Virus record (IMG/VR): IMGVR_UViG_3300046689_000435
Coordinates: 1 to 38,453 of that record
Origin: a virus
DNA: 38,453 nucleotides
Direction: 5' to 3' (one strand)
In this document: positions 3,493-38,412 of the stretch, one piece after another
Position numbering within the stretch: position 1 is the first letter of the stretch
Layout: each line of letters starts with the position of its first letter
Program-made: the position numbers and the translations under genes
The notes under the pieces: model-generated
The model's input: only the letters and a program-made list of their open reading frames with translations
Told to the model about the DNA's origin: nothing
Databases searched by the model: none

Positions 3493-3494
3493 GG

Positions 3495-12315: not shown

Positions 12316-12336
12316 GTGAGTGCTCCTGAAATGCGG

Positions 12337-12856: not shown

Positions 12857-12868
12857 GGCGGCGCCTCC

Positions 12869-14079: not shown

Positions 14080-14149
14080 CGGATCTGATCTCCTTCGGGC
14101 ATGGCTGACAGCCCGCGCACGGCAGGCTGCTGAGGGGCGAGGGGTGGGC

Positions 14150-15441: not shown

Positions 15442-15452
15442 GACAGCCTCCC

Positions 15453-15779: not shown

Positions 15780-15809
15780 GGCGGTGTGCCTCCCCGAGGC
15801 AGGGTTGGG

Positions 15810-15841
15810 CCCGCGGCGGCCCGGAGCACGGCCGCCGCGGG
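15810..15841 (-). terminator. Hairpin after the major capsid gene
   Basis: CCCGCGGCGGCC (15810-15821) pairs with GGCCGCCGCGGG (15830-15841) around eight bases, 12 bases past the capsid stop. The same 12-bp stem recurs at 25462-25505. It probably limits read-through so that capsid mRNA is most abundant. Confidence 0.6.
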
Positions 15842-15852
15842 AGTGGTGGGGG

Positions 15853-17331
15853 TCAGAACCCGGCGGCCGGGATCATGCCGGTGCCGGACACGACCGAGAT
15901 CGCCTTCGGCAGGCGGTCGGGCATGAACGCGAAGTAGTTGTAGATCTGGAAGCGGATCTGCAGCGTCCCGGAGAGGACTTCCTGCAGCACGCGGGTGCGC
16001 ATGCTGCCCTCCCACAGGTAGACGTCCGGGGTGCGGACGGTCGCGATGCGGGTCTCGTTGGTGCCGGCGCCCAGGTTCGAGGGGATGTTGCCGTCGAGGA
16101 TCACCGGGGTGCCGAGGGTCAGGCGCCCCACGGGGCCCTCGGAGACCTGTCCGGAGGAGATCGCCAGCGGGTTCAGGTCGCCCGGGCCCTGCTCCGGCAG
16201 GAGCAGCGGGCGGCCGTTGGCGTCCAGCTGGGCGTTCGCCCAGTACCAGATCGACGGGGTGCAGAACGTCGCGGTCGGCGGCATCTTGCGGTTCGTCGCG
16301 ACCTGGGAGACGGACTGGACCCACGGCACGTACATCTCCGCCAGCGTCGGGCTGGCGTCGGTGTAGGTGATGGCGTTGACGCCGGAGACGTTCAGCAGGC
16401 CGGTGGCCTGCCCGTTGGATCCGGTGCCCGTCCACAGCTGGGTGTCCAGCTTCTGGTTGTAGTCCGCGGTCAGGTCCGCGAACGTCACCTCGTCGAACGA
16501 GATCGGCGACTGGTCGAGCAGCTGCATCGCCACGTCCTGCTGACCGGCCAGGGTCCGCACCGGCGCGGTCACGAACGAGTCGGTCATGTCCGTGGACGTG
16601 ACGGCTGCGGCGTCTGCGGTCTGCACGCCGACCGCCGTACCGCTGGCGATCTTCGGCAGGTTGATGGAGTCGGTACCCTCCGGCAGCGTGAAGTTCGGCA
16701 CCGCGTTGGCCAGCGGCCGGCCGTACCGCGGCAGCTCGATGTACTGGTCGATGAGCCACAGCGGCGGCACGAAGTAGCCGCCCTGCCCGTCGGTCCTGTT
16801 GGGGTTGGTGCGGCGCTCGAACACCGACTCCAGCTGTTCCTCGGACACCCCACGGATGCCCCGGACCTCCTTGCGCGCGAGCTCGGCACGCCGGCGCTCC
16901 CGCTTGGGCATCTCCACGCGCAGCTCGGTCTCGTGAGACTGCAGGCGCGCCAGGGCGGCCTGGTCGCCGCGCATCTGCGACTTGGCCAGGTCCATGAAGT
17001 ACGACTTGCCGTTGCCGCGCTCGTAGGTCAGCGGCTCGGACACGGTGATGGCCGGGCCGCCCTCGCCACGGGCGTACTGGGCGCGGATCTCGGTGGCCTT
17101 GGCCTCGCGGGCCTCGGCCTGCTCGGCCTCGGTCACCCGGGCCTGCAGCTCCTCGACCGCGCCGTCGTGGGCCTTCAGCGCGTCGCGGGCCTCGGTCCAC
17201 GCGCGCTTCTCGTCGTCGGACAGGTCACGGTTCTCCCGGGTGGGCACCTCGATGGCGGCGTCGACCGCGGCCTTCAGCGGGGCCCGCTGCTCCAGGAGTT
17301 CCTGCATCTGCTTGCGCAGGAAGGCGAGCAT
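15853..17331 (-). CDS. Major capsid protein, HK97 fold, with fused scaffold domain
   Basis: 492 residues, ATG at 17331 with AAAGGAG six bases upstream. Residues about 1-120 are a charged coiled coil (LSDDEKRAWTEARDALKAHD), the delta-type internal scaffold removed by the prohead protease. The HK97 coat domain follows: GGYFVPPLWLIDQYIELPRY (N-arm), STDMTDSFVTAPVRTLAGQQ, LTADYNQKLDTQLWTGTGSN (E-loop and spine helix), and a C-terminal strand LSGTLQIRFQIYNYFAFMPD. It follows the protease and portal in the standard order. Confidence 0.94.
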   Translation of the reverse strand: MLAFLRKQMQELLEQRAPLKAAVDAAIEVPTRENRDLSDDEKRAWTEARDALKAHDGAVEELQARVTEAEQAEAREAKATEIRAQYARGEGGPAITVSEPLTYERGNGKSYFMDLAKSQMRGDQAALARLQSHETELRVEMPKRERRRAELARKEVRGIRGVSEEQLESVFERRTNPNRTDGQGGYFVPPLWLIDQYIELPRYGRPLANAVPNFTLPEGTDSINLPKIASGTAVGVQTADAAAVTSTDMTDSFVTAPVRTLAGQQDVAMQLLDQSPISFDEVTFADLTADYNQKLDTQLWTGTGSNGQATGLLNVSGVNAITYTDASPTLAEMYVPWVQSVSQVATNRKMPPTATFCTPSIWYWANAQLDANGRPLLLPEQGPGDLNPLAISSGQVSEGPVGRLTLGTPVILDGNIPSNLGAGTNETRIATVRTPDVYLWEGSMRTRVLQEVLSGTLQIRFQIYNYFAFMPDRLPKAISVVSGTGMIPAAGF

Positions 17332-17464
17332 GGCTCGCTCCTTTCGGATGGGGGATGGTTCGGTGCGGGCCTGCGTGGCCGTTCGGGTGGTGCCCCAGGT
17401 GGTGGCGCGCCAAGGCGCGCTCCGGCGTGAGGTCCGGCGCGTCAGGGGTGCAGGCGGTGTGCGG
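17332..17464 (-). other. Intergenic segment between protease and capsid genes
   Basis: 133 bases with no credible gene. It contains the hairpin GCGCGCC-AA-GGCGCGC (17405-17420) and the capsid ribosome site. The length suggests an extra promoter or an mRNA-processing leader for the capsid, but I see no clear -10/-35 pair. Confidence 0.35.
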
Positions 17465-18142
17465 CTACAGGGAGTCCGTCAGGGCCCGGTACAGGCCCAG
17501 CGGATGCCTTGCGGCCGCAGGTTCGGGTTCCGGCTCCAGGCGGCGCTGCAGGCGCTCCAGAAGCGCCCGGGCGTCCTGCTCTTCGAGCCGGTCGAAATCG
17601 GCGGCGCGCATCGCCGGGGCCACGCTGGTGGCCGGGTTCGCGCCGAAGTTCACCACGGAGACGTCGCCGCGGTGCAGGTCCACCTCGAGGATGTCGCGCT
17701 GGTCGTAGTCCGGGGACCACATCTGCCGGGTCACCCGGAACGCGAACGACATCTCGTCCACGTCGCCGTCGCCGATCGCGGCGAGCATGTCGCCGACGTC
17801 GCCGCGGGCCGGGTTCACGTCGGCCTCCATGTGCAGGCCCGTGCTGTCCTCCGACAGCCGCAGCGACCCGGCCTTGGTGTACGCCATGGACAGGCCGCCG
17901 TGATTCAGCAGCAGCTGCACCTGCGGGGTCTCCGACAGCGTCTTGGCGAACGAGCCCTGCCGCACGACCTCGCTGTAGGAGCCCAGCCAGTCCCACATCT
18001 CGAACGGCGACTCGGTCACCGAGGCGTAGCCCTCGATCGTCGACGGGCCGCCGGCCGCGGCGGCAGCGCGGACCTCCAACTGCACCGGGTAGGCGCGGCG
18101 GATGATGCCGCCTGGCTTCGCGCGCTCGCTCTTGTCGCCCAT
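17465..18142 (-). CDS. HK97-family prohead maturation protease (S78/U35)
   Basis: 225 residues. ATG at 18142 overlaps the portal stop (ATGA). Motifs in order: IEGYASVTESPFEMWDWLGS, PQVQLLLNHGG with the likely catalytic His, LHMEADVNPARGDVGD, and VDEMSFAFRV with the likely nucleophile Ser. DILEVDLHRGDVSVVNFGAN completes the herpes-protease-like fold. It digests the scaffold part of the coat protein during head maturation and then itself. The Arg/Glu/Pro-rich tail after residue 190 is probably removed. Confidence 0.9.
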   Translation of the reverse strand: MGDKSERAKPGGIIRRAYPVQLEVRAAAAAGGPSTIEGYASVTESPFEMWDWLGSYSEVVRQGSFAKTLSETPQVQLLLNHGGLSMAYTKAGSLRLSEDSTGLHMEADVNPARGDVGDMLAAIGDGDVDEMSFAFRVTRQMWSPDYDQRDILEVDLHRGDVSVVNFGANPATSVAPAMRAADFDRLEEQDARALLERLQRRLEPEPEPAAARHPLGLYRALTDSL

Positions 18143-19308
18143 CACTTGCCTCCCAGCACGCCCACGGTCGCCGTGTCGACCACCTGATTCGGTTCCTCGC
18201 CCCAGGCCACCGGCCCGAGGTCGTTCTCGTCGCGGATCTCGTTGACGTTCTTGATGCGGTTCTGCAGCTCGATCGCCTGCGCCTTGATGCGCGTCAGCAG
18301 GTCGGTACGGACCAGGCCCGACCGGTCGAACTTCACGACCGAGCGGCGGGTGGGCAGCAGCGCCGACAAGGACCGCTCCAGGCGCACCAGCCACGGGTCC
18401 ACGGCATAGGTCAGCAGGTCGATGGAGCGCTGCTCGATGTTGGCGTAGGTCAGCGACCCGCCCGTCTCGTACCCGAAGATCTCGGCGAAGCCGGGCCCGA
18501 AGATCCGGCAGCACTCCGTGGAGGTGTAGTTGTTCGTCTCCAGGAACTGCGACTCGTTCGGGCTGATCTGGATCGGCTGGTACTTCCAGCCGGCCCCCAG
18601 CACCGCGGGCTCCCGGCGGCCGTGAATCGCCGCCATGAACCGCTGCTTCGCCGTGTCGGCCTTCTTCTGGTCCAGCGCCGTTTCACTGGTCAGCACCCCG
18701 GAAGGGTGCGCGCCGTCGGTGAACCACTGCGCGCCGAACTGCATCGCGGAGATGCCGGTACGGATCGTCAGCGCCTGCAACGCGATCGGCGACAGCCCCA
18801 CGACCTGCCCCGGCGCGGTGTGCAGCCGCTTGTGCCACACCTGATCGCGGGGCACCGTCTGACCGCCGTACCGCCACTCAACGGCGCCGTCCTGGCCCAC
18901 GTAGGGCTGCACCGAGTCCGGGTGCTGCAGCACCACCTGCCGCGGCAGGCCTGAGCGCGGATCCTGCTGAGCGATCGTGCCGTAGACGTTGCCCCGCAGC
19001 ATCGCCGAGTAGATGTACGACCAGCACCAGTCAGGCGTGCCGTACCCGTCACCGCCGATGTCGGCCAGCCACGCCGGCAGGTCCGCGCGCTCCCGCTCCC
19101 GCGGGTAATACTGCAGCTCAAGGGTCTCCGCGATCGTCGCGACCAGGTTCACGCACGCCCAGACCGCGATCTTCTGCAGGCTCGACTCGGTGCGCGACAG
19201 GTCGATGTGCGCGTAGTTCAGGCTCTGGACCTGCGAGTTCGGCGGAATCGGCGGCGACGGGAACGTCACCGCGGATCGGCGCTCCGGGCGCCCAAACAGC
19301 ACACTCAC
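18142..19308 (-). CDS. Portal protein, HK97 family
   Basis: 388 residues from GTG at 19308 with GGGAGG six bases upstream. Characteristic segments: KIAVWACVNLVATIAETLEL, MLRGNVYGTIAQQDPRSGLP, LQHPDSVQPYVGQDGAVEWR, VWHKRLHTAPGQVVGLSPIA and ANIEQRSIDLLTYAVDPWLV. The portal is a dodecameric ring at one capsid vertex through which DNA is packaged. It lies directly between a small membrane-like gene and the protease. Length is normal for the family. Confidence 0.93.
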   Translation of the reverse strand: MSVLFGRPERRSAVTFPSPPIPPNSQVQSLNYAHIDLSRTESSLQKIAVWACVNLVATIAETLELQYYPRERERADLPAWLADIGGDGYGTPDWCWSYIYSAMLRGNVYGTIAQQDPRSGLPRQVVLQHPDSVQPYVGQDGAVEWRYGGQTVPRDQVWHKRLHTAPGQVVGLSPIALQALTIRTGISAMQFGAQWFTDGAHPSGVLTSETALDQKKADTAKQRFMAAIHGRREPAVLGAGWKYQPIQISPNESQFLETNNYTSTECCRIFGPGFAEIFGYETGGSLTYANIEQRSIDLLTYAVDPWLVRLERSLSALLPTRRSVVKFDRSGLVRTDLLTRIKAQAIELQNRIKNVNEIRDENDLGPVAWGEEPNQVVDTATVGVLGGK

Positions 19309-19520
19309 CTCGGCCTCCCTCTATGCGGCCAGCGGCTCGCAATCTGGTCGGCGAGCAGCAGCCCGCCGGCCGTCAGCGGCCCGCCAGGGGGCCACGCCCA
19401 CGACGCGCCCCAGGCCAGCAGGCCCACCGGGATCAGGCCCGGCAGCGCCCGCCAGACGGCGCCCACAGCCAGGCCCGCGATGGCGGCCGCGCGGACCTTC
19501 CACGGCTCCGTGTCGGCCAT
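19305..19520 (-). CDS. Small membrane protein between terminase and portal
   Basis: 71 residues, ATG at 19520 with GAGGGG upstream; its stop overlaps the portal start (GTGA). One or two hydrophobic stretches (IAGLAVGAVWRALPGLIPVG, then LLAWGASWAW) with basic ends. No family recognised. Small genes at this site are seen in other actinophages; a membrane or head role cannot be chosen from sequence. Confidence 0.6.
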   Translation of the reverse strand: MADTEPWKVRAAAIAGLAVGAVWRALPGLIPVGLLAWGASWAWPPGGPLTAGGLLLADQIASRWPHRGRPR

Positions 19521-19530
19521 GACGCCCCTC

Positions 19531-21063
19531 TCACCAGATGTTGTCGAGGGGGTCGACCTCGACGTCGTCACCGTGCTCCGCGAGCCCCCACAGCGCGTTC
19601 GTCGCCGCGACCAGCGGCGAGATGTCCACGGACACGCCGCGGCGCGCCCACGCCCACGCGTCGCCCAGCGGGCGCTTCTCCGCCCCCGCCAAAGCGCTGC
19701 CCATCGGCGCCTCGTCGCGGTGCGCGATCGCCTGCTCGGCGACCGCGTCGAAGAACTGGCCAGCCGCCTGGGCGACCTGCCGTGCCTTGGGCTGGACCAC
19801 GACCAGGCCGTCGTGCTCGACGCCGTCCTCGTCCGTCCACGCCTTCTCCAGCTCCGGGATCAGCGACCCGGCAGGGCCGCCCGGGTCCACGACCCACGCG
19901 CACGGCCCCCACTTCACGTGCAGGGCCCTGGCGCGGGCCACGACCCAGCCGATCGCCGGCCGGTGGTCGACGACCTCCACGGCCCGGCTCTCGCCATACA
20001 CGCCGGCCGCACAGATCGCCGCGTGCGACCGCTCCGGCGTGGCGTCGATGGCGAACGCCACCGGGCTGCCCGGGTTCGCCTCGGCGTCCGCCAGGGACCG
20101 CCAGGCGTCCTCCCCGATGACCTTCCACGTGTCCTCCCGGTCAGCCGGATACTCGCCCACACCGAGCCGCTCACGGGCGAACGGCCCAGGGCCCAGCGAC
20201 AGCTGCTCGTTCGCGATGTGCTGCCGGGTGATGCGGATCCCCATCGCCGGATTCGCGCGCGCCCACGACTCCGGCGCGTCCGGCGCGTCGTGCTCGGCGC
20301 AGTTCTGCGGGCATTCGTCGACGTGGGGGTCGACGGACCACTCGAAGTACGCCAGGGACGGGTCAGGCTCGCCCGCCTCCATCGCCGCCAGGGCCCGGCG
20401 GCGCAGCCTGCCCAACTGCAACGACGGAGCGCCGATCCCGGCGCTGCCCAGGTACCAGATCTGCGGGTTGGGCACAGCGGCCATGGTCGGCATCAGGGCC
20501 GCCATCGCCTCATCGCCCAGGATCATCGCCTCGTCCAGGACGTTGCAGTCCCCGGTGAAGCCCCGGCCGGAGCCGCCCGAGCGGGCCAGGAACCGAAGCA
20601 CCTGCCCGGTCACCAACTCGATCGCTTCCTCGCCGGTCGTCCGCCGCACCCGAAGTACGCGTTTCCGCAGGTCAGGGCACCCCATGATGAGCTGCTCGAT
20701 CCGGCGGAACGCGACAATGCTCGTCTTGAACTCGTGTGCGCTGTGCAGGATCAGCTTCTCGCCGAGCAGGAACAACCCGGCCAGTTCCCTGGCCTCGATC
20801 ACGCCGCCCTTGCCGTTCTGCCGCGGCACATTGACCGCAACCTCGAACGCGGCCCAGGCACCGTCGGCCCGCTCACCCAGACCGATGTCAAGGACGTGCT
20901 GCTGCCACGGATCGAGCTGCAGGCCAGCCAGTGCTGCCAGCTCGGCAGCCTCCTGGCCGCTACTCGACAGGAACGGCGGCGCCGTCTGCACCCGCGGCCG
21001 CTGCGAGCCGAGCGGCACGCTTACGGCGCTCCTCTCGCTGAGCAGAGAGGTCATCGACGCCAT
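19531..21063 (-). CDS. terL: Terminase large subunit
   Basis: 510 residues. ATG at 21063 has GGAGGGGG close upstream; ATG at 21054 is an alternative. The ATPase domain shows Walker A VPRQNGKG (79-86), Walker B NVLDEA (174-179) and a coupling-type segment IWYLGSAGIG. The nuclease half begins about residue 335 with FAIDATPERSHAA (acidic metal ligand), then WVVDPGGPAGSLIPEL and a final acidic ISPLVAATNALWGL region. It cuts concatemeric DNA and pumps it into the prohead. Its start lies 104 bases inside the preceding gene. Confidence 0.93.
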   Translation of the reverse strand: MASMTSLLSERSAVSVPLGSQRPRVQTAPPFLSSSGQEAAELAALAGLQLDPWQQHVLDIGLGERADGAWAAFEVAVNVPRQNGKGGVIEARELAGLFLLGEKLILHSAHEFKTSIVAFRRIEQLIMGCPDLRKRVLRVRRTTGEEAIELVTGQVLRFLARSGGSGRGFTGDCNVLDEAMILGDEAMAALMPTMAAVPNPQIWYLGSAGIGAPSLQLGRLRRRALAAMEAGEPDPSLAYFEWSVDPHVDECPQNCAEHDAPDAPESWARANPAMGIRITRQHIANEQLSLGPGPFARERLGVGEYPADREDTWKVIGEDAWRSLADAEANPGSPVAFAIDATPERSHAAICAAGVYGESRAVEVVDHRPAIGWVVARARALHVKWGPCAWVVDPGGPAGSLIPELEKAWTDEDGVEHDGLVVVQPKARQVAQAAGQFFDAVAEQAIAHRDEAPMGSALAGAEKRPLGDAWAWARRGVSVDISPLVAATNALWGLAEHGDDVEVDPLDNIW

Positions 21064-21277
21064 CCCCCTCCGACTTCACCGGTGCCAGTTTTCGAAGATC
21101 CAGGAGCAGAGCCCGCAGGTCGCGGGAGACGACGGCGGCCGCTGTCGGCGCATCGGTCTCGTCGAGGTGCTGCGCAAGCTTCAGGGCGGCCGCGGCCAGG
21201 CCCGGGGCCGTCGTCTCGCCGTCCAGTTCGCCGATCTCCTGGCGCACCGACTCCTCAATGACGCCCACAGCGACCAC
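20960..21277 (-). CDS. terS: Probable terminase small subunit
   Basis: 105 residues from GTG at 21277; GTG at 21268, with GGGGTGG ahead of it, is a real alternative. Mostly helical (GLAAAALKLAQHLDETDAPT, VVSRDLRALLLDLRKLAPVK) and ending in a basic, alanine-rich stretch. Small terminases recognise the packaging site and are helical. The gene directly precedes and overlaps terL, the normal order. No clear helix-turn-helix is visible, so the call depends mainly on context. Confidence 0.6.
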   Translation of the reverse strand: MVAVGVIEESVRQEIGELDGETTAPGLAAAALKLAQHLDETDAPTAAAVVSRDLRALLLDLRKLAPVKSEGDGVDDLSAQREERRKRAARLAAAAGADGAAVPVE

Positions 21278-21450
21278 CCCCGGTGTGACGTAGCGTCACC
21301 CGCGCAGACCGTCACGTTGAGTGAGCATCACTAAAAGTTGAGTTCGGCTTTCTCGGTCAAGATCGCCTTTCAAAATCGCCGCGCAAAAAATCGGGCGAGA
21401 AGGGCTTGTGGGTCGCCCGGGAAGGCACTCAAAGAATGGGCCCGGGCTCT
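21278..21450 (-). promoter_or_regulatory. Low-GC control region upstream of the terminase genes
   Basis: 173 bases without a gene. On the minus strand TTGACC (21360-21355) stands 18 bases before TTTTAG (21336-21331), a modest promoter. Nearby are the inverted repeat GTGACG-TAG-CGTCAC (21285-21299), another CGTCAC (21310-21315) and A/T runs at about 21369-21390 that stand out in this genome. Late promoter, operator and packaging (cos or pac) site are all possible here. Confidence 0.35.
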
Positions 21451-21891
21451 TCACCACTGCCTCGACGGCCTGGCCGCGACGATCGCGGTGCGGGCCGGCC
21501 GGTAGCGGTCGTACCAGCGGGTGACCACACCCATGAGTGCGGGCTGGCGCATGGCGGCGACTCTTTCGGTGACGATGGAGCGGCCTGGGTCGACCACCAC
21601 GATGCGGGCGGCGAGTCGCTTGTACTTGGCCATGGCCTTGGGGTTGGGCATGGAGTGGATCAGGTAGACGTCGGTGTCGTCGAGGTGCTGGCAGGCTTCG
21701 TCGATGGCTGCGTAGCGGGCTCGGTGGGCGACCTTGGTCAGTACCTCGCCGTGGTTCCAGCTGGGTGCGGCGCGCGCGGTGAGAGCCAGGGCGATGCGGT
21801 CGAGGTCGATGACGACGTCGCCTTGCTTGGCGTGTGCCTCGATCCACGTGGACTTGCCTGCGGCCGGCGGCCCGGTGATGACGTACAGCAC
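21451..21891 (-). CDS. P-loop kinase (AAA_33 / zeta-toxin-like fold)
   Basis: 146 residues from GTG at 21891, four bases after the preceding gene. It begins with a strand and Walker A, LYVITGPPAAGKST (GxxxxGKST at 7-15), followed by DVVIDLDRIAL and a basic lid-like region with RERVAA-type arginines (ARIVVVDPGRSIVTERVAAM). This matches small nucleotide or polynucleotide kinases found in many phages, which repair DNA/RNA ends or phosphorylate nucleotides. No partner antitoxin is evident. The substrate cannot be told. Confidence 0.75.
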   Translation of the reverse strand: MLYVITGPPAAGKSTWIEAHAKQGDVVIDLDRIALALTARAAPSWNHGEVLTKVAHRARYAAIDEACQHLDDTDVYLIHSMPNPKAMAKYKRLAARIVVVDPGRSIVTERVAAMRQPALMGVVTRWYDRYRPARTAIVAARPSRQW

Positions 21892-22993: not shown

Positions 22994-23149
22994 TCAGCGG
23001 GTGCCGCGGGTGTGGGTGCGGCGCCAGGCGTTGAGGGCGCGGCGGCCCAAGCGGAGCCGGCCGGAGGGCTTGAACGGCTGCACGGCGCAGGCCACGGCGT
23101 ACACGCCGGCGGCCAGCAGAAGGGCGAGCAGGCTAGCGAGGATCAGCAC
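22994..23149 (-). CDS. Tiny membrane protein downstream of the translocase
   Basis: 51 residues from GTG at 23149 with GGGAG eight bases upstream. A single hydrophobic helix (LILASLLALLLAAGVYAVAC) is followed by a very basic tail. It lies just past the CTAG-rich segment behind the FtsK-like gene. Function unknown. Confidence 0.5.
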   Translation of the reverse strand: MLILASLLALLLAAGVYAVACAVQPFKPSGRLRLGRRALNAWRRTHTRGTR

Positions 23150-23200
23150 GGCGGATCTCCCGGGTTCGGGGCGGATTCGGGGGGTGCGAGCAGGGGGCCG

Positions 23201-23283
23201 CTAGGCGCTAGTTGCCTGGTCAGCGGCCCGTTCTGCTGCTAGTGGAGGTGCTAGACCTAGCAGGGGCGGGTGCTAGGTCTAGC
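23201..23283. repeat. CTAG-rich repeats with 13-bp inverted repeat behind the translocase gene
   Basis: Seven CTAG tetramers (23201, 23208, 23239, 23251, 23257, 23273, 23279) lie in 82 bases. GCTAGACCTAGCA (23250-23262) and TGCTAGGTCTAGC (23271-23283) are exact inverted copies eight bases apart, and each half is itself near-palindromic. CTAG is normally rare in bacterial DNA. The segment starts 17 bases after the FtsK-like gene ends. It may be a terminator, an operator, or the DNA site used by the translocase. Confidence 0.6.
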
Positions 23284-23299
23284 GGCCTCTTTTCGGGGC

Positions 23300-25423
23300 T
23301 CAGGCGGCCTTGCGGTCGGCGTCCCGGCGGGTCTTCGCGGCGACCACATCGGCCTTCTCGATGCCGCGGCGGGTGGTCTGCCGGCCGTCGTCGGTGGTGC
23401 CCCACACGTCCTTGGCGAGCACGCCCCACGGCTTGAGGGCGACGGTCACCATGGAGCCGTCCCAGCTGCCGTACAGGTCGGGCTGCAACGGCGCCAGGCG
23501 CTCCGCGAGCCGCTCGCTCCAGACCTTGTCTTCTCCCGTGCGGAACACCTTCAGTACGTCGGCGAGGATGTCCATGCCCGGCCCGCTCTCCGGGCCCTTG
23601 CCGACGGCGTGGCCGGTGACGTTGCCGTACTCCTCGCGCATCTTCCGGGCGCGCTCGACGACCAGTTCGGCCTTCGGGGCGTCGATGAACGCCGAGGCGA
23701 CGATCGACGGGTCGTCGCCTTCGCCGGACATCCAGCAGATGCCCAGGTCACGGCGGCTGAACATGGTGGCGCGGATCCCGGACTTGTAGGCGCCGGTGCT
23801 GAGCACCATGTCGTTGGCGGTGTGGCCCATGACCTTCAGGCAGAACCGCAGCACCGCGTTCGCGGAGATGCCCGGCGGCAGCGACTTGGCGTCCGGGCGC
23901 TGGGTGGCGAAGATCCCGACGATGCCCAGGGCCGGCCCGCGCTTGGTGACGTCCTCGCAGATCGACTCGATCTCCGCCCCGTGCTCGGGGTCCTCGAACA
24001 CCTTCTGGCACTCGTCGACACCGAGGACGATCGGGTGCAGGCCGAGGCTCTTGTCGCTGGCCAGCTCGGGCGTGACCTTCGACTCCGGGCAGCGGGACCG
24101 CGGCAGGGACTTGATGACCTTCGCCCGGCGCCGCAGCTCCGCCTTGATCTCCCGCAGCGAGTCGAGGATGTACTCGATGTCCTCGGGCTCCTCGCCGGCC
24201 CGGTAGCGGTGGCACACCGGCTCCAGCGCGCCCAGGTCGCCGGTGCCCTTGAGGTCGAAGGCGAGGACGTCGGCGCGCGGGTCGAGGGCCGCGGCGAGCA
24301 GCAGCAGCCTGAGCAGGAACGTCTTCCCCATGCGCGGGATGGCGCCGATGATGATGGCCGCGAACATCAGGGTGACGGAGACGTCCCTCATCCGCTGGTC
24401 GTTGCCGATGACGACGGGCTTGAACAGGTCGACGACACCGGACTTGAGCAGCGGCCACGCGGGCTTGGTGGTCTCGTTCATCGGCTTGTCGCCGACCCAC
24501 AGCGTGAGGTGCCCTTCGTGCTCGGCGGGGTCCGGGGACGGCCAGACGCAGCCGACCTTGCGGCGCAGGCCCGAGGCGAGGGCTTCGCGCTTCTCCATGA
24601 CGTCCTCGGCGGTCACGCCGAACGGCAGGTCGAGGTCGGCGCGGTAGCCGGGCCCGTCGCGGGTGATCTCGTGGGTGAACTTCAGGCCGTCCATCTCGCC
24701 GCCCTTCTTGATCGCGGCGGAGATCTTGCTGTTGCCGATGGCGTCCAGGGCGCGCAGCACGATCGGGCCGGTCAGGCGCGGCACCTCGTTGCGGGACACG
24801 GCGGGGCCGATGACCGGGGCGTCGGGCTGCTGGCCGCCGTACCCGAGGGCGAGTACACCGGCTGCAGCGGCGAGGTACAGCCACGCGTCGCCGAGGACGT
24901 ACAGGGTGATGGCGAGGGCTACGCCGCAGGTCAGGCCGACGAGGGCGAGCAGGCCGCGGAGGCGTACCCGGTCGGCGCGGAGCTTGGCGAGGCTGCGGTA
25001 CTGGTCGAAGTCCTCGGTGCGGACGGCGGCGGCGCGCAGCGGGGCGGCCTCGATGTCCCACACCCAGCGGCGGCCCTTGCCGAGCAGCCGGGCGGCGCCG
25101 CGCGGGGCCATCGCGCCGAGCTGCAGGCTGTACCAGGGGGTGCGCACCGCGTGGTAGCGGGTGGCATACCAGGTGCGGCTGGCGGTGGGCCCGGCGGTGT
25201 TGCGGAACTCCCCGGCGGAACGGACCCAGGCGGGGAGGATCGGCCGGCGCTTCTCGGAGTACACGCCGGTCGGCGGCAGGTTCGGGTTGTCGACGGGGCG
25301 GGGCGCGGCCCGCTCTTCGGGCTCGACGACCGGGGGCGGCGCAGGGGTGTCAGCAATGGTGACGCCCTTGATGTCCTTGTCGAGGATCGTGCCGTTGACC
25401 GGCCCGGGGATGGTCTGGGTCAT
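23300..25423 (-). CDS. FtsK/SpoIIIE-family DNA translocase, TraB/AICE-like
   Basis: 707 residues, ATG at 25423 with GGAGAA eight bases upstream. Residues 1-110: proline-rich, cytoplasmic. 155-195: two hydrophobic segments (LLALVGLTCGVALAITLYVL and LYLAAAAGVLALGYG). 220-340: linker domain. The motor has Walker A GAIPRMGKT (360-368), Walker B IVLGVDE (465-471) and sensor ATQRPD (506-511), then HTANDMVLSTGAYKSGIRAT. This form, with GAIPRMGKT, matches the conjugative translocases of Streptomyces plasmids and AICEs, which move double-stranded DNA between mycelial cells. No gamma-type winged helix is obvious. In a phage it could serve transfer, partition or DNA delivery. Confidence 0.85.
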   Translation of the reverse strand: MTQTIPGPVNGTILDKDIKGVTIADTPAPPPVVEPEERAAPRPVDNPNLPPTGVYSEKRRPILPAWVRSAGEFRNTAGPTASRTWYATRYHAVRTPWYSLQLGAMAPRGAARLLGKGRRWVWDIEAAPLRAAAVRTEDFDQYRSLAKLRADRVRLRGLLALVGLTCGVALAITLYVLGDAWLYLAAAAGVLALGYGGQQPDAPVIGPAVSRNEVPRLTGPIVLRALDAIGNSKISAAIKKGGEMDGLKFTHEITRDGPGYRADLDLPFGVTAEDVMEKREALASGLRRKVGCVWPSPDPAEHEGHLTLWVGDKPMNETTKPAWPLLKSGVVDLFKPVVIGNDQRMRDVSVTLMFAAIIIGAIPRMGKTFLLRLLLLAAALDPRADVLAFDLKGTGDLGALEPVCHRYRAGEEPEDIEYILDSLREIKAELRRRAKVIKSLPRSRCPESKVTPELASDKSLGLHPIVLGVDECQKVFEDPEHGAEIESICEDVTKRGPALGIVGIFATQRPDAKSLPPGISANAVLRFCLKVMGHTANDMVLSTGAYKSGIRATMFSRRDLGICWMSGEGDDPSIVASAFIDAPKAELVVERARKMREEYGNVTGHAVGKGPESGPGMDILADVLKVFRTGEDKVWSERLAERLAPLQPDLYGSWDGSMVTVALKPWGVLAKDVWGTTDDGRQTTRRGIEKADVVAAKTRRDADRKAA

Positions 25424-25461
25424 GCTGGGGTTCTCCAGTGCTCGTGAGGGTGCTGGTTGGG

Positions 25462-25505
25462 CCCGCGGCGGCCGGTCTGCTTGGCCGCTACTCGGCCGCC
25501 GCGGG
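25462..25505 (-). terminator. Hairpin between the 53-residue gene and the translocase gene
   Basis: CCCGCGGCGGCC (25462-25473) pairs with GGCCGCCGCGGG (25494-25505). The stem is identical to that behind the capsid gene (15810-15841). It may tune expression of the translocase. Confidence 0.5.
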
Positions 25506-25511
25506 GCGGGG

Positions 25512-25673
25512 CTACTTGCGCTGGTCGCGGCGCTTGCGGGCGTTGGCGACGATGCGGTCGATGGCGGCCGTCTGGCGGGTGGTGAGGGTGCCTTGGCGGA
25601 TCGCGGCCATGCCGGCGATGCGGTACACGCGGGCGAGGTCGAGGGCGTTGAGGCCGTCGAGCTGGTTGGACAT
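25512..25673 (-). CDS. Small helical hypothetical protein
   Basis: 53 residues, ATG at 25673 with GGGGAGGAA six bases upstream, among the best ribosome sites in this region. Helical and basic (LNALDLARVYRIAGMAAIRQ, then IDRIVANARKRRDQRK). No family recognised. It lies upstream of the translocase gene behind a hairpin and could be a small regulator or accessory. Confidence 0.55.
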   Translation of the reverse strand: MSNQLDGLNALDLARVYRIAGMAAIRQGTLTTRQTAAIDRIVANARKRRDQRK

Positions 25674-25713
25674 GGCGTTCCTCCCCGGGCCGGGCTGTCC
25701 GGCCCCACCGCGC

Positions 25714-25742
25714 CGACAGACCTCCTACGGCAAGGTCTGTCG
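25714..25742 (-). terminator. Terminator after the membrane-protein operon
   Basis: CGACAGACCT (25714-25723) pairs perfectly with AGGTCTGTCG (25733-25742), loop nine bases, 15 bases past the stop at 25757. A second hairpin, GGGCCGG-gctgt-CCGGCCC (25687-25705), follows. Confidence 0.65.
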
Positions 25743-25756
25743 CACGGAAGGGCAGG

Positions 25757-26155
25757 TCAGCGGCGGCGCTTGCCCTTGGCCGACTCGGGCTTGAGGGCGC
25801 CGATGACGTGGACGATCGACACGGCGAGTACGGCTATGGCCAGGCCACCGGCCAGCACGATGATCGCCATGACGGTCAGGGACGCCGTCAGCAGCGGCCC
25901 GAAGTACACCGCGGCGGGGATCGACCCGGCACCGAACCCGGCACCGAACGCCAGGCGCTGCAGCGTCCTGTCGGGCGGGGCCGCCTCGTGGATGTGGATG
26001 ACCTGCACCGGCTGCTGTGCCTGCCAAACCTGCTGGTCGCCGCCCGGGGTGGGAGCTAGCGCCCACCCTTCGTCGGGCCGGCGGGCGGGCAGGGGGCGCG
26101 GCTCGAACGACGGGACGGGCATGTCGAACTGATAGCGCTTCGGAGTAGCGCTCAT
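25757..26155 (-). CDS. Membrane protein next to the DUF2637 gene (spread-like context)
   Basis: 132 residues, ATG at 26155 overlapping the preceding stop (ATGA). The N-terminal 60 residues are proline-rich and soluble; two hydrophobic segments follow (AFGAGFGAGSIPAAVYFGPL and ASLTVMAIIVLAGGLAIAVL), then a basic tail GALKPESAKGKRRR. In Streptomyces plasmids and AICEs, small membrane proteins stand beside the tra gene and help spread DNA through mycelium. The order here is the same, but I recognise no specific family. Confidence 0.6.
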   Translation of the reverse strand: MSATPKRYQFDMPVPSFEPRPLPARRPDEGWALAPTPGGDQQVWQAQQPVQVIHIHEAAPPDRTLQRLAFGAGFGAGSIPAAVYFGPLLTASLTVMAIIVLAGGLAIAVLAVSIVHVIGALKPESAKGKRRR

Positions 26156-27015
26156 GAGGTGGACTCCAGGGTGAGGGCGGCGCGGCGGACGCGGCGGCCG
26201 TAGCTGTCGCTGGTTCCGAGGCGGGTTCCGATCTCGGTTCCGGTGGTCTTCGGGTTGGTCTTGAGCCACAGCCGCGCGAGGGTGACGTGCTCGGCGGAGA
26301 CGCCGGGCGGAACCTCGATCGGTTCCGGCTGGGGTTCCGCAGACTCTGGGTCGGGTTCCATCCGTGGCGCGGCCGGAACGGCCGGTAGCGGGGTCGGATT
26401 GGCTTTTTCGGCGTTCACCGAAAAAGCCTGGTCGTGGCTGGTTCCGGCGAGAAGTTCCGCTACCGGGACGAGCGGGCCGAAGGTGAGCGGACCAGCTTGT
26501 ATAACATCCAAACTGATCGGCTCCTCGACGCGTTCGAGGGTGACCGGTTCCGGTGCGAGTTCCGCCGGAACCTCCGCCAGTTCCGGCAAGTGATCCATTT
26601 GGATCACTTCGGGTTCCGCTGGTTCCGCAAGGTGGTCGTGGACCTGCCGCATGAGCGCGCCGAAGGCCAGCAGCGCGGCCACCGGAGGAACGGCGGCCAC
26701 CACGTAGGTGAGCGTCGGGGCGTTCTTCCCGACGCCGGCGACGTTCAGCGCGATCGACGCCCCCGACCCGGAGACCGTGAGAGTCACCGCCCACCAGTCG
26801 ACGCCGCGGCCGAGCAGCGAGGCGCGCAGCATCAGCAGCTCGCCGATCATGATGAACAAGTCGACCGTCGCCGGCCAGACCCACGCCCTGGAACCGGCGA
26901 GGCCGTTGCTGGCGGATACGTCGTGCAGGTGCTCGTAGGACAGCCAGAACGCGAAGCCGGTCAGCAGCACTGTGGCGGCTGCGGCTCCGACGGCGGCCCA
27001 ACTCTGGGGCTTCAC
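26152..27015 (-). CDS. DUF2637-type membrane protein with C-terminal DNA-binding-like tail
   Basis: 287 residues from GTG at 27015 with GGAGGAA four bases upstream. Four membrane segments in residues 1-125 (AAAATVLLTGFAFWLSYEHL, VWPATVDLFIMIGELLMLRA, WAVTLTVSGSGASIALNVAG, VVAAVPPVAALLAFGALMRQ) match the DUF2637 pattern common on Streptomyces plasmids, AICEs and phages. A long Glu/Pro-rich linker follows, and residues about 235-287 look like a helix-turn-helix (ARLWLKTNPKTTGTEIGTRL). The linker and end are encoded with unusual GGA and GAA codons that create many GTTCCG/CGGAAC words. Membrane and DNA contact together suggest DNA spread or anchoring. Confidence 0.8.
   Translation of the reverse strand: MKPQSWAAVGAAAATVLLTGFAFWLSYEHLHDVSASNGLAGSRAWVWPATVDLFIMIGELLMLRASLLGRGVDWWAVTLTVSGSGASIALNVAGVGKNAPTLTYVVAAVPPVAALLAFGALMRQVHDHLAEPAEPEVIQMDHLPELAEVPAELAPEPVTLERVEEPISLDVIQAGPLTFGPLVPVAELLAGTSHDQAFSVNAEKANPTPLPAVPAAPRMEPDPESAEPQPEPIEVPPGVSAEHVTLARLWLKTNPKTTGTEIGTRLGTSDSYGRRVRRAALTLESTS
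26401..26428. repeat. Perfect 11-bp inverted repeat inside the DUF2637 gene
   Basis: GGCTTTTTCGG (26401-26411) and CCGAAAAAGCC (26418-26428) with a 6-base loop. It is unusually AT-rich for this genome and lies within the linker coding region, amid the GTTCCG cluster. Confidence 0.7.
26588..26609. repeat. Palindrome inside the DUF2637 gene
   Basis: AAGTGATCCA (26588-26597) and its exact complement TGGATCACTT (26600-26609) around TT. It is low in GC compared with its surroundings and lies within the GTTCCG cluster. It looks like an operator for a dimeric protein. Confidence 0.65.
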
Positions 27016-27185
27016 GGGTTCCTCCGGGGGATGCGGCGCGCCAGGCGCGGCCGGGCGATCAGGCCGGCGACGAAGGCCCAGCCGAGGGGCTCCACGCTGT
27101 GGAGACCCTCGACGACCAGCGGCAGCACCAGGTGCGGGAAGGCGGCCAGCAGGCCGAGCAGGAGGCCGAGCAGGATCGTCTTCAC
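27012..27185 (-). CDS. Small membrane protein
   Basis: 57 residues from GTG at 27185 with GGAGGTG six bases upstream; its stop overlaps the DUF2637 start (GTGA). Two hydrophobic segments (ILLGLLLGLLAAFPHLVLPL and LGWAFVAGLIA) and a basic end. Translationally coupled to the DUF2637 gene, so it may work with it at the membrane. Confidence 0.6.
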   Translation of the reverse strand: MKTILLGLLLGLLAAFPHLVLPLVVEGLHSVEPLGWAFVAGLIARPRLARRIPRRNP

Positions 27186-27538
27186 GACGCACCTCCGGTC
27201 GGCTCGGTGTCCTGCCGCACCTCGAAGTCGACGGGGGCTGCCTCGGTGCCGAGCCGGATGTGCTCGGTCATGGCGGTGAGGTGGTACTGCAGGTTGCGGG
27301 GGCTGAGGGTGAGGAGCACCTGGGCGGCGATCCGTACCGTGGTGGCGCGGTCGACGATCAGCTCGTCGCGGCGGCGGCGGCGCTCCAGGGTCTCCGCGAA
27401 GTCGGCGGCCGGTGCGGCGCGGGGCACGTCGAGGGCGTCGCGCACGGCGGTGAGGAAGGCCAGGACGTCGCTGTCCAAGGTGGACTCGCCCTCGCGGGTG
27501 TCCTTCCCGGCGGCGTCGGTGGTCTGGGGCTCGGTCAT
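27182..27538 (-). CDS. Hypothetical protein, soluble and helical
   Basis: 118 residues, ATG at 27538 overlapping the preceding stop (ATGA). The first 25 residues are acidic and probably disordered; then VLAFLTAVRDALDVP and a basic helix ETLERRRRRDELIVDRATTV, then LSPRNLQYHLTAMTEHIRLG. No family recognised. Part of a tightly coupled chain from 29106 to 25757. Confidence 0.6.
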   Translation of the reverse strand: MTEPQTTDAAGKDTREGESTLDSDVLAFLTAVRDALDVPRAAPAADFAETLERRRRRDELIVDRATTVRIAAQVLLTLSPRNLQYHLTAMTEHIRLGTEAAPVDFEVRQDTEPTGGAS

Positions 27539-27918
27539 CTCTCACCCCTGGGCGTCTCGCAGGCGAGGCGGCGGGCCATGTAGCGGACCTTGCCCGCGGC
27601 CTCCAACAGGTCAGCGGCGAGGGTTTCCAGGCCGACCGCGTCGTAGTCGAAGTGGTCCGCGTCGAGGAGGTGCACGGTGACGTACACGTCGGCGCCGTTG
27701 GTGTTGCTGGGCGTGGGGAACGGGTCCATCCACAGGAGGAGTTCGGCGAGGCGCTGGGGGCCGCGGCGGGTGCCGACCGTGAGCGCGATCGACGGCCCCG
27801 TGTGGGCGATCTCGCAGCGCAGCAGGCCGTCCGGGTGCTCCCCGGTACACCAGGCCGGCTCCGGGACGGTGATGGTCCCGTAGTCGGCGGTCTGCACGGT
27901 CACGCTGCGGGGCGTCAC
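27535..27918 (-). CDS. DUF6907-like protein
   Basis: 127 residues. GTG at 27918 is chosen: it has GGGGAGG six bases upstream and overlaps the preceding stop (GTGA). It contains VPEPAWCTGEHPDG, then RCEIAHTGPSIALTV and a beta-rich middle with VYVTVHLLDADHFDYD. The P-x-WC-x-x-x-H element followed by such strands is typical of DUF6907 proteins, widespread in Streptomyces and its mobile elements. Function unknown. Confidence 0.6.
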   Translation of the reverse strand: MTPRSVTVQTADYGTITVPEPAWCTGEHPDGLLRCEIAHTGPSIALTVGTRRGPQRLAELLLWMDPFPTPSNTNGADVYVTVHLLDADHFDYDAVGLETLAADLLEAAGKVRYMARRLACETPRGER

Positions 27919-28199
27919 TGCTGGCCTCCCCACGTGGCGTAGGTGGGGGGCTCTTCGGTGGCGAAGCGGCGGAGCTGCGCGGCGTGGTCGGCGGCGTCGG
28001 CGACGCGCACGTCGAGAAGGTCGTGCAGGGCGCTGACCACGTCGGCGTGCCGGGTCTCCAGCTGGTCACGCCAGGCGCGCCGGGCCTGCTTGTCTCCCTC
28101 GGCGTAGGCCGGCAGGTCGAGGTGTTCGAGGATCGCCGTCAGCAGGTCGACGGCGCCCGCCGGCAGCATCGGCGGCTCGGGCAGGACGAGGTCGTTCAT
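27915..28199 (-). CDS. Small acidic hypothetical protein
   Basis: 94 residues, ATG at 28199. Largely helical (AVDLLTAILEHLDLPAYAEG, RHADVVSALHDLLDVRVADA). No known family. Coupled on both sides by 4-base overlaps, so it belongs to the same transcript as the DUF6907-like and 59-residue genes. Confidence 0.6.
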   Translation of the reverse strand: MNDLVLPEPPMLPAGAVDLLTAILEHLDLPAYAEGDKQARRAWRDQLETRHADVVSALHDLLDVRVADAADHAAQLRRFATEEPPTYATWGGQQ

Positions 28200-29493: not shown

Positions 29494-30129
29494 TCATGAC
29501 GCCTTGCGCAGATCGTCCTGCGCGATCTTCAACCGCACCCACACGCCCGGCGGGTAGGTAGAGCCGCACCACGGGCAGAAGATGATCTGCGCTTCCTCCG
29601 GCCGCCGCAGCGGCCCCCGGCAAGGCTCCCCGTCGTGCACGGACGGGCACGGACCCATCCGGTGCGACAGGTCCGGCTCGCCGACGATCGTCCGCACGTC
29701 ATCGAACAGGTCCCGGACCTCCCGGGCAAAGTCGCCAGCAGCCGGCCACTCCCGCGTTGCCCACTTGAAGTGCTTCTGCAGGCCCTTCACGGCCGCCTTC
29801 ACCTGCGCGGTCTGATCGCTGGGCAGCACGGGCACGGTGCGCCCCATGGCGTCGAAGAGCGCCTGGTGCCAGCCGGACAGGATCGCGAACGCGGCGAACT
29901 TGGTGTCGTCGCCGAGCGAGAGGGCCGGCGAGTGCGCGGCCCGGCTGCCGCGCCGGCCGTCCAGGCTCTTGGGCCAGTTCGAGCGGAGCGGTCGCACCGC
30001 CTCCCACAGTTGGTCGTACAGGTCCGGCAGCAGCTCCAGCCGATCCCGGGTGTCCGCCGCGCAGTTGGCGCACAGGTAGGGCCAGCCGTCGGCGGCCGAG
30101 GTGGCGGTCTCGCACAATTCGCAGTTCAC
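29494..30129 (-). CDS. Hypothetical protein with zinc-ribbon-like Cys pairs at both ends
   Basis: 211 residues from GTG at 30129 with GAGGAG six bases upstream. N-terminal CELC and CANC pairs form a likely zinc ribbon. The middle is helical (KAAVKGLQKHFKWATREWPA, REVRDLFDDVRTIVG). The C-terminus has CPSVHDGEPCRG and CPWCG, a second ribbon. Proteins of this form occur in Streptomyces phages and elements. Binding of nucleic acid or protein is possible; no function is known. Confidence 0.65.
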   Translation of the reverse strand: MNCELCETATSAADGWPYLCANCAADTRDRLELLPDLYDQLWEAVRPLRSNWPKSLDGRRGSRAAHSPALSLGDDTKFAAFAILSGWHQALFDAMGRTVPVLPSDQTAQVKAAVKGLQKHFKWATREWPAAGDFAREVRDLFDDVRTIVGEPDLSHRMGPCPSVHDGEPCRGPLRRPEEAQIIFCPWCGSTYPPGVWVRLKIAQDDLRKAS

Positions 30130-30923: not shown

Positions 30924-31127
30924 CTGTCCCACCTGTCCCCTCCCTAAGGAGAGGAGGGGACGGGACAGGTGGTCCGACGTGCCCTGTCCCCAACCTGTCC
31001 CCGACCTGTCCGGGACAGGTCTGACCTGGGGTTTTTCATTAATCTGTCCCCGGATCGGGGACAGGTGGTTCGTCCCATTCCTCCTGTCCCGTCCCGTCGA
31101 GGGTCGGGGACAGGTTTGGGGACAGGT
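30924..31127. repeat. ori: Iteron-like array and AT-rich patch: candidate replication origin
   Basis: At least 12 copies of GGGGACAGGT or its complement ACCTGTCCCC, some shortened to CTGTCC. Complement sites begin near 30924, 30932, 30982, 30993, 31004, 31044 and 31083; forward sites begin near 30962, 31013, 31057, 31106 and 31118. Two pairs are inverted repeats (31003-31021 and 31044-31064). In the middle, 31031-31043 (GTTTTTCATTAAT) is strikingly AT-rich. The array starts inside the end of the RepA-like gene. Iterons plus an AT-rich melting site beside initiator genes is the standard plan of an initiator-driven origin. Confidence 0.7.
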
Positions 31128-32217
31128 GATCTGGGGCTTTTGTCTGTCCTCGTCGGAGCTTCGCGACGTCGGACAGAAGTTCGTTTCGAGCCTGGATTCC
31201 GAGGCGCGCGCACTCGGTCCGGAGCTTGTCGCGCCCCCAGTTCGCGGGGACCTTCTCGGCATCCAGGCGGGCGGCGACTTCCTCGGCACGGGTCTTCTGG
31301 CCGGCCGCCACGCGCTCCTGATCTATGGGGTCGAGCTTGACTAGGACGATGGAGGTCACCGGCGAGCCGTCCTCCTTCGCCTCCCCGGCCAGCATGATCT
31401 GGTGGAGGCCGAACACGACGTCGTCGAGCTCTTCGTCGTCCTTCTGCTTGCCGGTTTTTAGTGTCACCGTGATGTCCTCCAGGGTCTTGCCCCTGCGCTC
31501 GACCCCGAGTTCGGTCTGCAGGGCGCCCTTCACGGCCGTGGCACCGCGCCCACGGTCGCTGTCGTGACCCGTGTGGTGGACAAGCAGGACGCACGCCCCG
31601 GACGCTCCCCGCAGCTGTTCCATGCGGTCGACCACTCGACCCATCTCGGTGTTCGAGTTCTCCTCGACGCCCACCGTGACCCGGGCCTGGGTGTCCACGA
31701 TGATCAGCGCCGGTTCCATGCGGCGGCACAGCTCGATGAGCACCAGCCACTCAGGGTCCATCGCCTGCACAGGGCGCGGCAGGAACTTCACCCCGGTCAT
31801 GCGACGGCCGTGGTGCTGCTCCCACGCGCGGACGCGCTTGCGGATGCCCTTGATGCCCTCCGCCACCAGGTAGATCACGCCGCCTTGGCTGACCTTCTGG
31901 CCATGCCAGGCCATGCCGGTGCCGACGTGCGCGGCGAAGTCCAGAGTCAGGAACGACTTGAAGGTGCCCGATGCCCCGTACACGCGGGCCAGCGTGTCCT
32001 TGAACAGGACATCGGCGATGATCGGTTCGAGCGCAGGGATGTTGTCGAGGTCGCCGGTGTCGAGGAGTTCGGCTTGCAGCGCCTTCAGCCGAGCCTCGAA
32101 GTGCTCTTCGGACGTCAGCCCCCGCTCGTCTGGTTCGGGCTCCGGCTCGGGCATGGGGGGCACGCTGCCCGCCCACGGGTCGTCTGCCGGGGCTCCCGGC
32201 TCGGCGTAGGTCGTCAC
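31039..32217 (-). CDS. RepA-type hexameric replicative ATPase/helicase (AAA_25-like)
   Basis: 392 residues from GTG at 32217, overlapping the primase stop (GTGA). A proline-rich N-terminus leads into the RecA-fold core: Walker A GASGTFKS (81-88), Walker B LIIVDT (171-176), and LLVHHTGHDSDRGRGATAVK (211-230) with the conserved histidines and arginine of RepA/RSF1010-like ATPases. The last 80 residues are a basic region with helix-turn-helix-like character and then a Pro-rich tail that overlaps the origin repeats. It probably unwinds DNA at the origin with the adjacent primase-polymerase. Confidence 0.85.
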   Translation of the reverse strand: MTTYAEPGAPADDPWAGSVPPMPEPEPEPDERGLTSEEHFEARLKALQAELLDTGDLDNIPALEPIIADVLFKDTLARVYGASGTFKSFLTLDFAAHVGTGMAWHGQKVSQGGVIYLVAEGIKGIRKRVRAWEQHHGRRMTGVKFLPRPVQAMDPEWLVLIELCRRMEPALIIVDTQARVTVGVEENSNTEMGRVVDRMEQLRGASGACVLLVHHTGHDSDRGRGATAVKGALQTELGVERRGKTLEDITVTLKTGKQKDDEELDDVVFGLHQIMLAGEAKEDGSPVTSIVLVKLDPIDQERVAAGQKTRAEEVAARLDAEKVPANWGRDKLRTECARLGIQARNELLSDVAKLRRGQTKAPDHLSPNLSPTLDGTGQEEWDEPPVPDPGTD

Positions 32218-33179
32218 GCGGCCCCCAGCCAACCGACGTTGCCGAGCGCGGACTCGATGGCGTCGTCCATCTCGTTCTCGTCCCGCTGGGCCATCCGACC
32301 GGCGGAGTAGATCTCGGCCCGCATCTCGTAGTCGGTGCACCGCCCGGCGGCGACCAGGTGGGCCGCCGCGGTGGTGACCCGGCAGAGCACCTTGTGACGC
32401 TCTCCCTCGGGGGCGCTGGCGAGCTGCGCGGCGAGGTCGACGATGGTGGCGTGGCCACCCGAGGACGGCCGGTGCTGAGGTCGTGCGACAGCGGGCCGGG
32501 CCGGGCGCGGCTTGGGCATGTGACCGGTGCCTTCGAGGTGGTGGAGCAGCCACCGGGGCGCGGGCAGCGGGTCGAGACTCTCGGACAGCCGTCGGTACTC
32601 GCCGTCCGGCGTGGTGCTGGTCGGCGCGACGATGTAGCTGCCGGCGGCGCGGACGTCGATGAGCCAGCCGAAGGCGCTCTCCGACTTGTTGACGGTGATG
32701 CCGTCCGGCAGCCGCCAGTACAGGTGCAGGCCCTGGCTGGGGGTGCCGACGATCAGCGTGTCGCCGGGGTAGGACTGGCCGTACCGCTCCAGGGCGAGAG
32801 CGAAGACGTCGCCGCCGTCGGTGACGCCCATGCCGTCGTACTCCGCCGGCGGGGGCGTACCGGCCTTGTTGCGGTCGAGGTCGACGACGACCAGGCGGGC
32901 CGGGCCGGTGGCGATCCCGAGGTTCATGTCGGGGTAGCGGCGTGCCCAGTCGTTGATGCGCTCGGGGTCGGTGCTGGCGGCGTGGAAGCCGTGGCAGACA
33001 TCGGCCGGGTGCGGGCAGCTCTCGATGCCCCTGTGGGGGACGTAGTCCGGGGATCGCCTGTCGCACTGCGGGCAGTGCCGCAGCGGCTTCTTCGCGCCCG
33101 GCGTGAGCGGGAAGACGGGCCAGCCTCGGGAGGCGAAGGCGCGGGCGGCCGTGATGCGGCGGCTGGCGTCGGCGCTCAC
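32214..33179 (-). CDS. Bifunctional primase-polymerase (Prim-Pol, AEP family)
   Basis: 321 residues from GTG at 33179 with GGGAGG six bases upstream. GWPVFPLTPGAKKPL opens the domain, a zinc-like insert has Cys36, Cys39, Cys55 and Cys62, then GIATGPARLVVVDLD supplies the catalytic Asp100 and Asp102. TPSQGLHLYW (Ser148, His152) and LIDVRAAGSYIVAP (Asp175) complete the active site. The last 85 residues are a helical PriCT-like domain. It makes primers and can extend them, as in AICE and plasmid replication. It overlaps the ATPase gene. Confidence 0.9.
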   Translation of the reverse strand: MSADASRRITAARAFASRGWPVFPLTPGAKKPLRHCPQCDRRSPDYVPHRGIESCPHPADVCHGFHAASTDPERINDWARRYPDMNLGIATGPARLVVVDLDRNKAGTPPPAEYDGMGVTDGGDVFALALERYGQSYPGDTLIVGTPSQGLHLYWRLPDGITVNKSESAFGWLIDVRAAGSYIVAPTSTTPDGEYRRLSESLDPLPAPRWLLHHLEGTGHMPKPRPARPAVARPQHRPSSGGHATIVDLAAQLASAPEGERHKVLCRVTTAAAHLVAAGRCTDYEMRAEIYSAGRMAQRDENEMDDAIESALGNVGWLGAA

Positions 33180-36782: not shown

Positions 36783-36795
36783 GAGGAAGTCACTG

Positions 36796-38393: not shown

Positions 38394-38412
38394 TGACCTG
38401 GGTACTTCTAGA

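Follow-up and report, generated by a model that had tools for sequence, protein, structure and literature searches.

Gene flow by phages and gene flow by conjugative elements are commonly regarded as distinct. In plasmid transfer, TraB and the clt locus suffice (PMC4170104). Hexameric TraB assembles at clt and moves double-stranded DNA, and Spd proteins promote spread (PMC4170104, PMC9513070). SpdB2 is a spread protein which binds DNA and interacts with TraB (PMC4170104). Actinomycete integrative and conjugative elements (AICEs) with a tyrosine integrase (Int-Tyr), a Prim-Pol and an FtsK/SpoIIIE Tra protein have been described by Ghinet et al. 2011 (PMC3218068), and the search criterion for them is an integrase, a Rep or Prim-Pol, and an FtsK/SpoIIIE Tra protein inside 30-60 kb (PMC3218068). 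TraB-type pumps serve mating in AICE-like elements (PMC9513070). No clt has been described for the archetype AICE pSAM2 (PMC9513070), and the non-subscription literature that we searched describes none for it either. The same literature contained nothing relevant on a phage/TraB hybrid in Streptomyces, and an AICE mobility survey handles phage genes merely as a cargo category.

We analysed IMGVR_UViG_3300046689_000435, an IMG/VR virus record of 38,453 bases; the window below means this whole stretch. Its two ends share an exact 127-bp terminal repeat, which leaves a unique circle of 38,326 bp (~38.3 kb). Identical contig ends are a typical trace of a short-read assembler closing a circle. The features of the window are as follows.

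3235..21891, minus strand: virion and lysis genes (holin, endolysin, tail, tape measure, capsid, protease, portal, TerL, TerS), by PHROG searches
22994..23149, minus strand: 51-aa one-span membrane protein, 3' of the repeat locus, by hydropathy
23198..23283, minus strand: clt-like repeat locus of ~85 bp directly after the translocase stop, by CTAG enrichment, alignment and blind searches
23300..25423, minus strand: TraB/FtsK-type dsDNA translocase, 707 aa, with membrane hairpin, motor domain and C-terminal winged helix, by Pfam/PHROG, AF2 model, Foldseek and the pSVH1 TraB match
25512..25673, minus strand: 53-aa protein directly upstream of the translocase, an ORF with RBS; its position is that of DUF6257 in an AICE-like plasmid (position comparison only)
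25757..26155, minus strand: DUF6251 small one-span membrane protein (PF19764, E 2.2e-22)
26152..27015, minus strand: DUF2637 multi-span membrane protein, SpdB2-like (PF10935, E 3.8e-14; ~3 spans by hydropathy)
27012..27185, minus strand: 57-aa one-span membrane protein, overlapping the DUF2637 start, by ORF and hydropathy
27535..27933, minus strand: DUF6907 protein, a companion mostly of phage-clade loci (16 vs 1 AICE)
29494..30129, minus strand: phrog_1467 protein, a companion in phage-type loci (9 clade loci vs 0 AICE)
30925..31128, both orientations: iteron-like cluster ACCTGTCCC(C), 9 copies, far above shuffles, around the 3' end of the AAA_25 gene
31039..32232, minus strand: AAA_25 replication helicase-like protein, by profile searches
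32214..33179, minus strand: Prim-Pol replication protein (PF09250, E 3.8e-38)
36739..38367, plus strand: tyrosine integrase, by profile searches
38411..38453 (= 85-127 via the 127-bp terminal repeat), unstranded: attP-like tRNA half adjoining the integrase, by sequence match

The initial annotation had placed a complete siphophage head, tail and lysis set on the same circle as a DNA-transfer block, and PHROG searches found this gene set complete on the minus strand. With terminase, portal, protease, capsid, tail, lysis and integrase genes, the element is predicted to be a temperate siphophage (Caudoviricetes). The large tail protein (5501-7852) bears a carbohydrate-binding domain, CBM_4_9, and is a candidate receptor-binding part. 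We read the attP-like tRNA half as tRNA-Thr from its sequence; it matches the intergenic region beside the integrase of Streptomyces phage mu1/6. The integrase, Prim-Pol and FtsK/SpoIIIE Tra protein also lie within 30-60 kb, which agrees with the AICE search definition. AICEs move by conjugation and make no virions of their own; because a complete virion gene set is present, the element was not filed as an AICE. A DNA search with the window for near-identical phages gave short matches only, and no GntR-type repressor of the kil-kor kind was found in the window. The ACCTGTCCC cluster at 30925-31128 is the probable replication origin. A clt role for it was weighed and dropped, since clusters of this kind, divergent in sequence, adjoin the rep genes of AICE relatives.

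Profiles, Foldseek, hydropathy and the model agree with the initial annotation of an FtsK/TraB-type translocase with two membrane spans. Its motifs are intact (Walker A GAIPRMGKT, Walker B LGVDECQ). The match to Pfam FtsK_SpoIIIE (E 4e-4) is slightly below the cut-off, and that to phrog_1358 has E 1.5e-26. Foldseek ranked FtsK motor domains at the top, followed by the conjugation protein TcpA. TraB of pSVH1 matches over 359 columns with 30% identity (probability 99.8), and the protein has an FtsK-like motor with Walker A and B that is homologous to a proven TraB. Its N-terminal part is predicted to span the membrane as a hairpin at ~residues 150-197, where hydropathy and model agree and span 2 is weaker by hydropathy. 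The AF2 model is moderate overall (mean pLDDT 67), and the C-terminal wHTH is predicted with pLDDT ~80-90; this domain and the co-variation of W674 described below suggest a repeat-recognising winged helix like that of TraB. Clustered repeats, the putative clt, lie directly after the gene. The translocase is under purifying selection among phage relatives, with dN/dS of 0.10-0.21 across ten phage-clade pairs, and it is more conserved than the head genes of the carrier elements.

A DUF2637 membrane protein and several tiny membrane proteins had been proposed beside the translocase, and the profile match and the one-span proteins at 22994-23149, 25757-26155 and 27012-27185 bear this out. The proposed block, 22994-27185, holds the translocase, DUF2637 and the small membrane proteins but misses the upstream companions (to ~30.1 kb) and the replication genes. 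The DUF6251, DUF2637 and 57-aa genes overlap at their ends and lie on the same strand as the translocase. The DUF6251 family is also found upstream of FtsK in an AICE-like S. decoyicus plasmid, and a homologue of the 51-aa protein is present in 14/14 of the first IMG/VR relatives. DUF2637 covers both the window protein and a pFP11 protein which is 53% identical to pSVH1 SpdB2; SpdB2 of pSVH1 itself has no Pfam match, and the profile link from the window to SpdB2 is transitive via pFP11. Two counts weigh against a transfer module. DUF2637 was detected in only 6/17 records, and a multi-span upstream protein was seen in 19/36 phage loci by crude hydropathy. PHROG names the DUF2637 protein an excisionase, which we rejected on its membrane spans. 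The same name is given to DUF2637 in PHROGs and RefSeq phage records (phrog_733, phiSASD1 gp15, Dubu gp38), and it looks like a misannotation.

AICEs share with the window an integrase with tRNA att site, a Prim-Pol, a same-family translocase (66-75% identical), DUF2637/DUF6251 neighbours and the same CTAG locus, but they have no siphophage head, tail and lysis set. Plasmid pSVH1 has an FtsK-like pump, an array of repeats including an inverted repeat immediately past its stop, and an SpdB2-like membrane protein upstream. Its pump is ~30% identical over the shared region, and its repeat core is GACCCGGA vs CTAG in the window. Two Pseudonocardia circles, pPaSha2 (L003, CP052773) and NZ_CP053567 of P. 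broussonetiae (L132), carry capsid/terminase, FtsK and DUF2637 on one circle, and one of the two also has Prim-Pol. Their translocases are 43% (pPaSha2) and 36% (NZ_CP053567) identical to that of the window and fall outside the main clade, and no CTAG locus was seen. Judged by gene content, the combination of phage and transfer genes arose outside Streptomyces too. Among Streptomyces phages, phiSASD1 has a DUF2637 protein; phage mu1/6 has the tRNA att core in common with the window. Neither phage has the translocase by tblastn or a CTAG cluster (24.7 kb of phiSASD1 examined). Other phages encode FtsK/SpoIIIE-like motors (phrog_1358), but the protein of Bacillus phage SP-15 is 34% identical over 19% of the query, comes from an unrelated host and has no AICE-like neighbours in a 5.4-kb stretch.

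A scan for clustered octamers first picked up CTAG-core repeats, which in several relatives lie right behind the translocase stop. The same scan recovered the GACCCGGA repeats of pSVH1 at the equivalent position, after the traB stop. This locus goes beyond the initial annotation. Its boxes are GCTAGacCTAGC, plus an inverted repeat, in the order GCTAGacCTAGCa, 10 nt, GCTAGgtCTAGCa, GCTAGCacc, TGAcCAGg, CTAGCgtCTAGCgg. They are placed as follows.

23269-23283, minus strand: box1, pairing with box2 as an inverted repeat
23247-23261, minus strand: box2, reverse complement of box1
23235-23243, minus strand: box3, by alignment
23214-23224, minus strand: middle motif, by alignment
23198-23212, minus strand: box4, by alignment

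Seven of the 17 CTAG sites in the window's circle fall at 23201-23282. In the phage clade, the 200 bp following the stop contain 34.5 CTAG per kb vs 0.23 elsewhere (~150-fold); in AICE-like loci the values are 36 vs 0.5 per kb. The locus follows the stop codon in all 32 measurable phage-clade loci (each with at least 3 CTAG) and in 53/53 AICE-like loci. Boxes 1 and 2 form a 12-13-bp inverted repeat whose centre dinucleotide is complementary in 84/91 loci, most of the others being G-U compatible, and the spacer between them is exactly 10 nt in 88/91. A blind search with the DNA pattern matched 15 viral contigs, with a translocase adjacent in every one, including translocases as distant as 37% and 49% identity. 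Among 150 Streptomyces genomes the pattern was found in 16, abutting a translocase gene in 16/16. We rejected a packaging site (cos/pac), because the locus is present in AICE-like elements in which no terminase was found.

The repeat and the predicted wing of the translocase change together. The fifth box base is changed symmetrically in 4 loci, to GCTAC..GTAGC (L119, L120, L122) or GCTAT..ATAGC (NBC_00562), and Nonomuraea locus L149 has mixed box types. All 93 loci with a CTAG-type box have W674; it is missing from 4/4 changed loci, from L149 and from pPaSha2, which has no CTAG locus. When the last 110 residues are left out of the tree, the motif change takes about four independent steps. Binding of the boxes by the winged helix would produce such a pattern. 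Since W674 and a box base have changed together about four times, the translocase probably docks at this locus, which would be its clt. W674 need not act alone, because sites 655, 658, 682 and 683 also differ in the subset of loci compared. In one pair, L002 (NBC_00562) and L127, the translocases are closely related across the ~600 N-terminal residues, and both winged helix and DNA boxes are strongly different, as if reading domain and DNA site had been swapped together.

Relatives of the translocase were sought in phages, viral contigs, genomes and plasmids. Among 50,697 cultured-phage records there was no close relative, and only the weak SP-15 match was found. Plaque formation by this group is thus only presumed, which counts against the main explanation below. 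The best relatives are 53-74% identical and lie in Streptomyces genomes and viral contigs. IMG/VR gave 14 relatives with 66-73% identity, and the genome scan gave 382 matches, of which the best 80 were kept. The best plasmid match (55%) is an 18-kb Streptomyces circle without phage genes. To class the loci, their neighbourhoods were compared with known terminase, portal, protease, capsid and tape-measure proteins, for homology, and with AICE replication families. The 97 loci comprise 54 AICE-like, 31 phage and 12 unclear neighbourhoods, and single labels can err because they draw on at most 10 kb per side and because one 'replication' family, f4, is without a database match. The S. decoyicus plasmid (NZ_CP107886, 29,140 bp) is annotated as two 14,570-bp AICE-like copies head to tail, which may be a true dimer or may stem from the assembly.

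A carefully built tree of 57 proteins gives the main phage clade (30 rows) a support of 99/100 and nests it among AICE proteins. The initial annotation had held that a grouping of the translocase with phage-only proteins lacking a transfer role would speak against its reading, and this holds only by half: a mostly phage clade does form, but it lies within AICE proteins and has the same DNA locus and wing residue as AICE members. AICE ancestry of the phage-borne translocase is supported by these trees, and the AICE- or plasmid-like origin proposed for the block also agrees with its AICE-type neighbours (DUF2637, DUF6251) and the clt-like locus. A single phage origin is unsupported: the phage-borne translocases of L104, L072 and G010 fall outside the main clade in the 57-protein tree, as does that of pPaSha2 in a wider quick tree. 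One locus inside the phage clade, L048, has DUF3987 and no detected phage genes; it is possibly a phage-to-AICE return move, or a remnant.

We consider it reasonably probable, from comparison of sequences, that the element is a temperate siphophage with an adopted AICE transfer module, that is, a TraB-type pump, its own clt and a virion-free route. A temperate siphophage would have taken over the DNA-transfer module of an AICE. The 707-aa protein would be a membrane-anchored TraB-type dsDNA pump, and its C-terminal winged helix would bind the repeat locus right after its own gene as the phage's clt, the cis site marking DNA for transfer. The DUF2637 (SpdB2-like) and small membrane proteins may assist septal spread. 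Prim-Pol and the AAA protein would replicate the circular phage DNA from the iteron cluster, and the pump would deliver it as dsDNA to adjacent mycelium or past cross-walls. There it would enter a tRNA gene by way of Int/attP, a route that needs no virion; the virion pathway would be a second route. We infer three points here, namely that the locus is a clt, that the pumped DNA is the phage's own and that transfer occurs. The phage holds putative counterparts of pump, clt and spread protein together with its own replication and integration, from which we infer that it may move by mycelial transfer as well as in virions. The absence of the CTAG locus from pPaSha2, a more distant phage-borne case, counts against this explanation. 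We lean only slightly towards the broader claim that a Streptomyces phage lineage transmits both as virions and by relaxase-free dsDNA mycelial conjugation, and that the CTAG locus is the undescribed transfer site of an entire class of AICEs, read partly by one wing tryptophan.

The hyphae of Streptomyces are divided by septa, the site at which FtsK/SpoIIIE pumps work. The translocase might distribute excised or replicating prophage within one mycelium only, past cross-walls and to the spores, as a means of spread or partition and without any mating of strains. A phage would gain by reaching every compartment before lysis, and Spd-type proteins serve intramycelial spread in plasmids (PMC4170104). 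We regard this use as unlikely, since AICE-like elements have the same pump and locus and use TraB-type pumps for mating (PMC9513070); no sequence feature separates the two uses. Less likely still is that the repeat locus is a transcription terminator, an RNA element or a repressor operator, in which case the translocase may still be a transfer protein. The locus does sit between two genes, and its 12-13-bp inverted repeat could act in RNA. Against this, the alignment shows more conservation in boxes 3 and 4 and in the CTAG core than pairing would require, the spacer is fixed at 10 nt, and the motif change tracks the wing residue of the translocase; Rfam gave no match for the locus or for the window. 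Docking and regulatory roles could coexist. A role of the translocase in the virion cycle (packaging, DNA entry, late segregation) is very improbable, as is its being a passenger gene without transfer role. Its gene does lie directly upstream of and co-directional with the head genes, and a few unrelated phages have FtsK-like counterparts. Against this, a complete terminase is encoded, AICE-like elements in which no virion genes were detected share this gene and locus, and the dN/dS values do not fit a passenger.

If the phage-borne TraB/clt module does transfer DNA, a conserved phage clade would unite infection and mating in one genome. The CTAG locus is a candidate transfer site for AICEs, and the co-variation of wing and box may offer a base-to-residue rule for TraB specificity. 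A survey that recognises AICEs by Int, Rep and Tra alone would include such phages in its count. A further sequence, CTGACCTGC or near variants of it, follows the repeat arrays of pSVH1, pFP11 and NBC_01238 (L131, L148, L150) downstream of traB. It is also found in many loci of the present translocase family, e.g. L102, L120 and L127, and is possibly a second conserved clt element.
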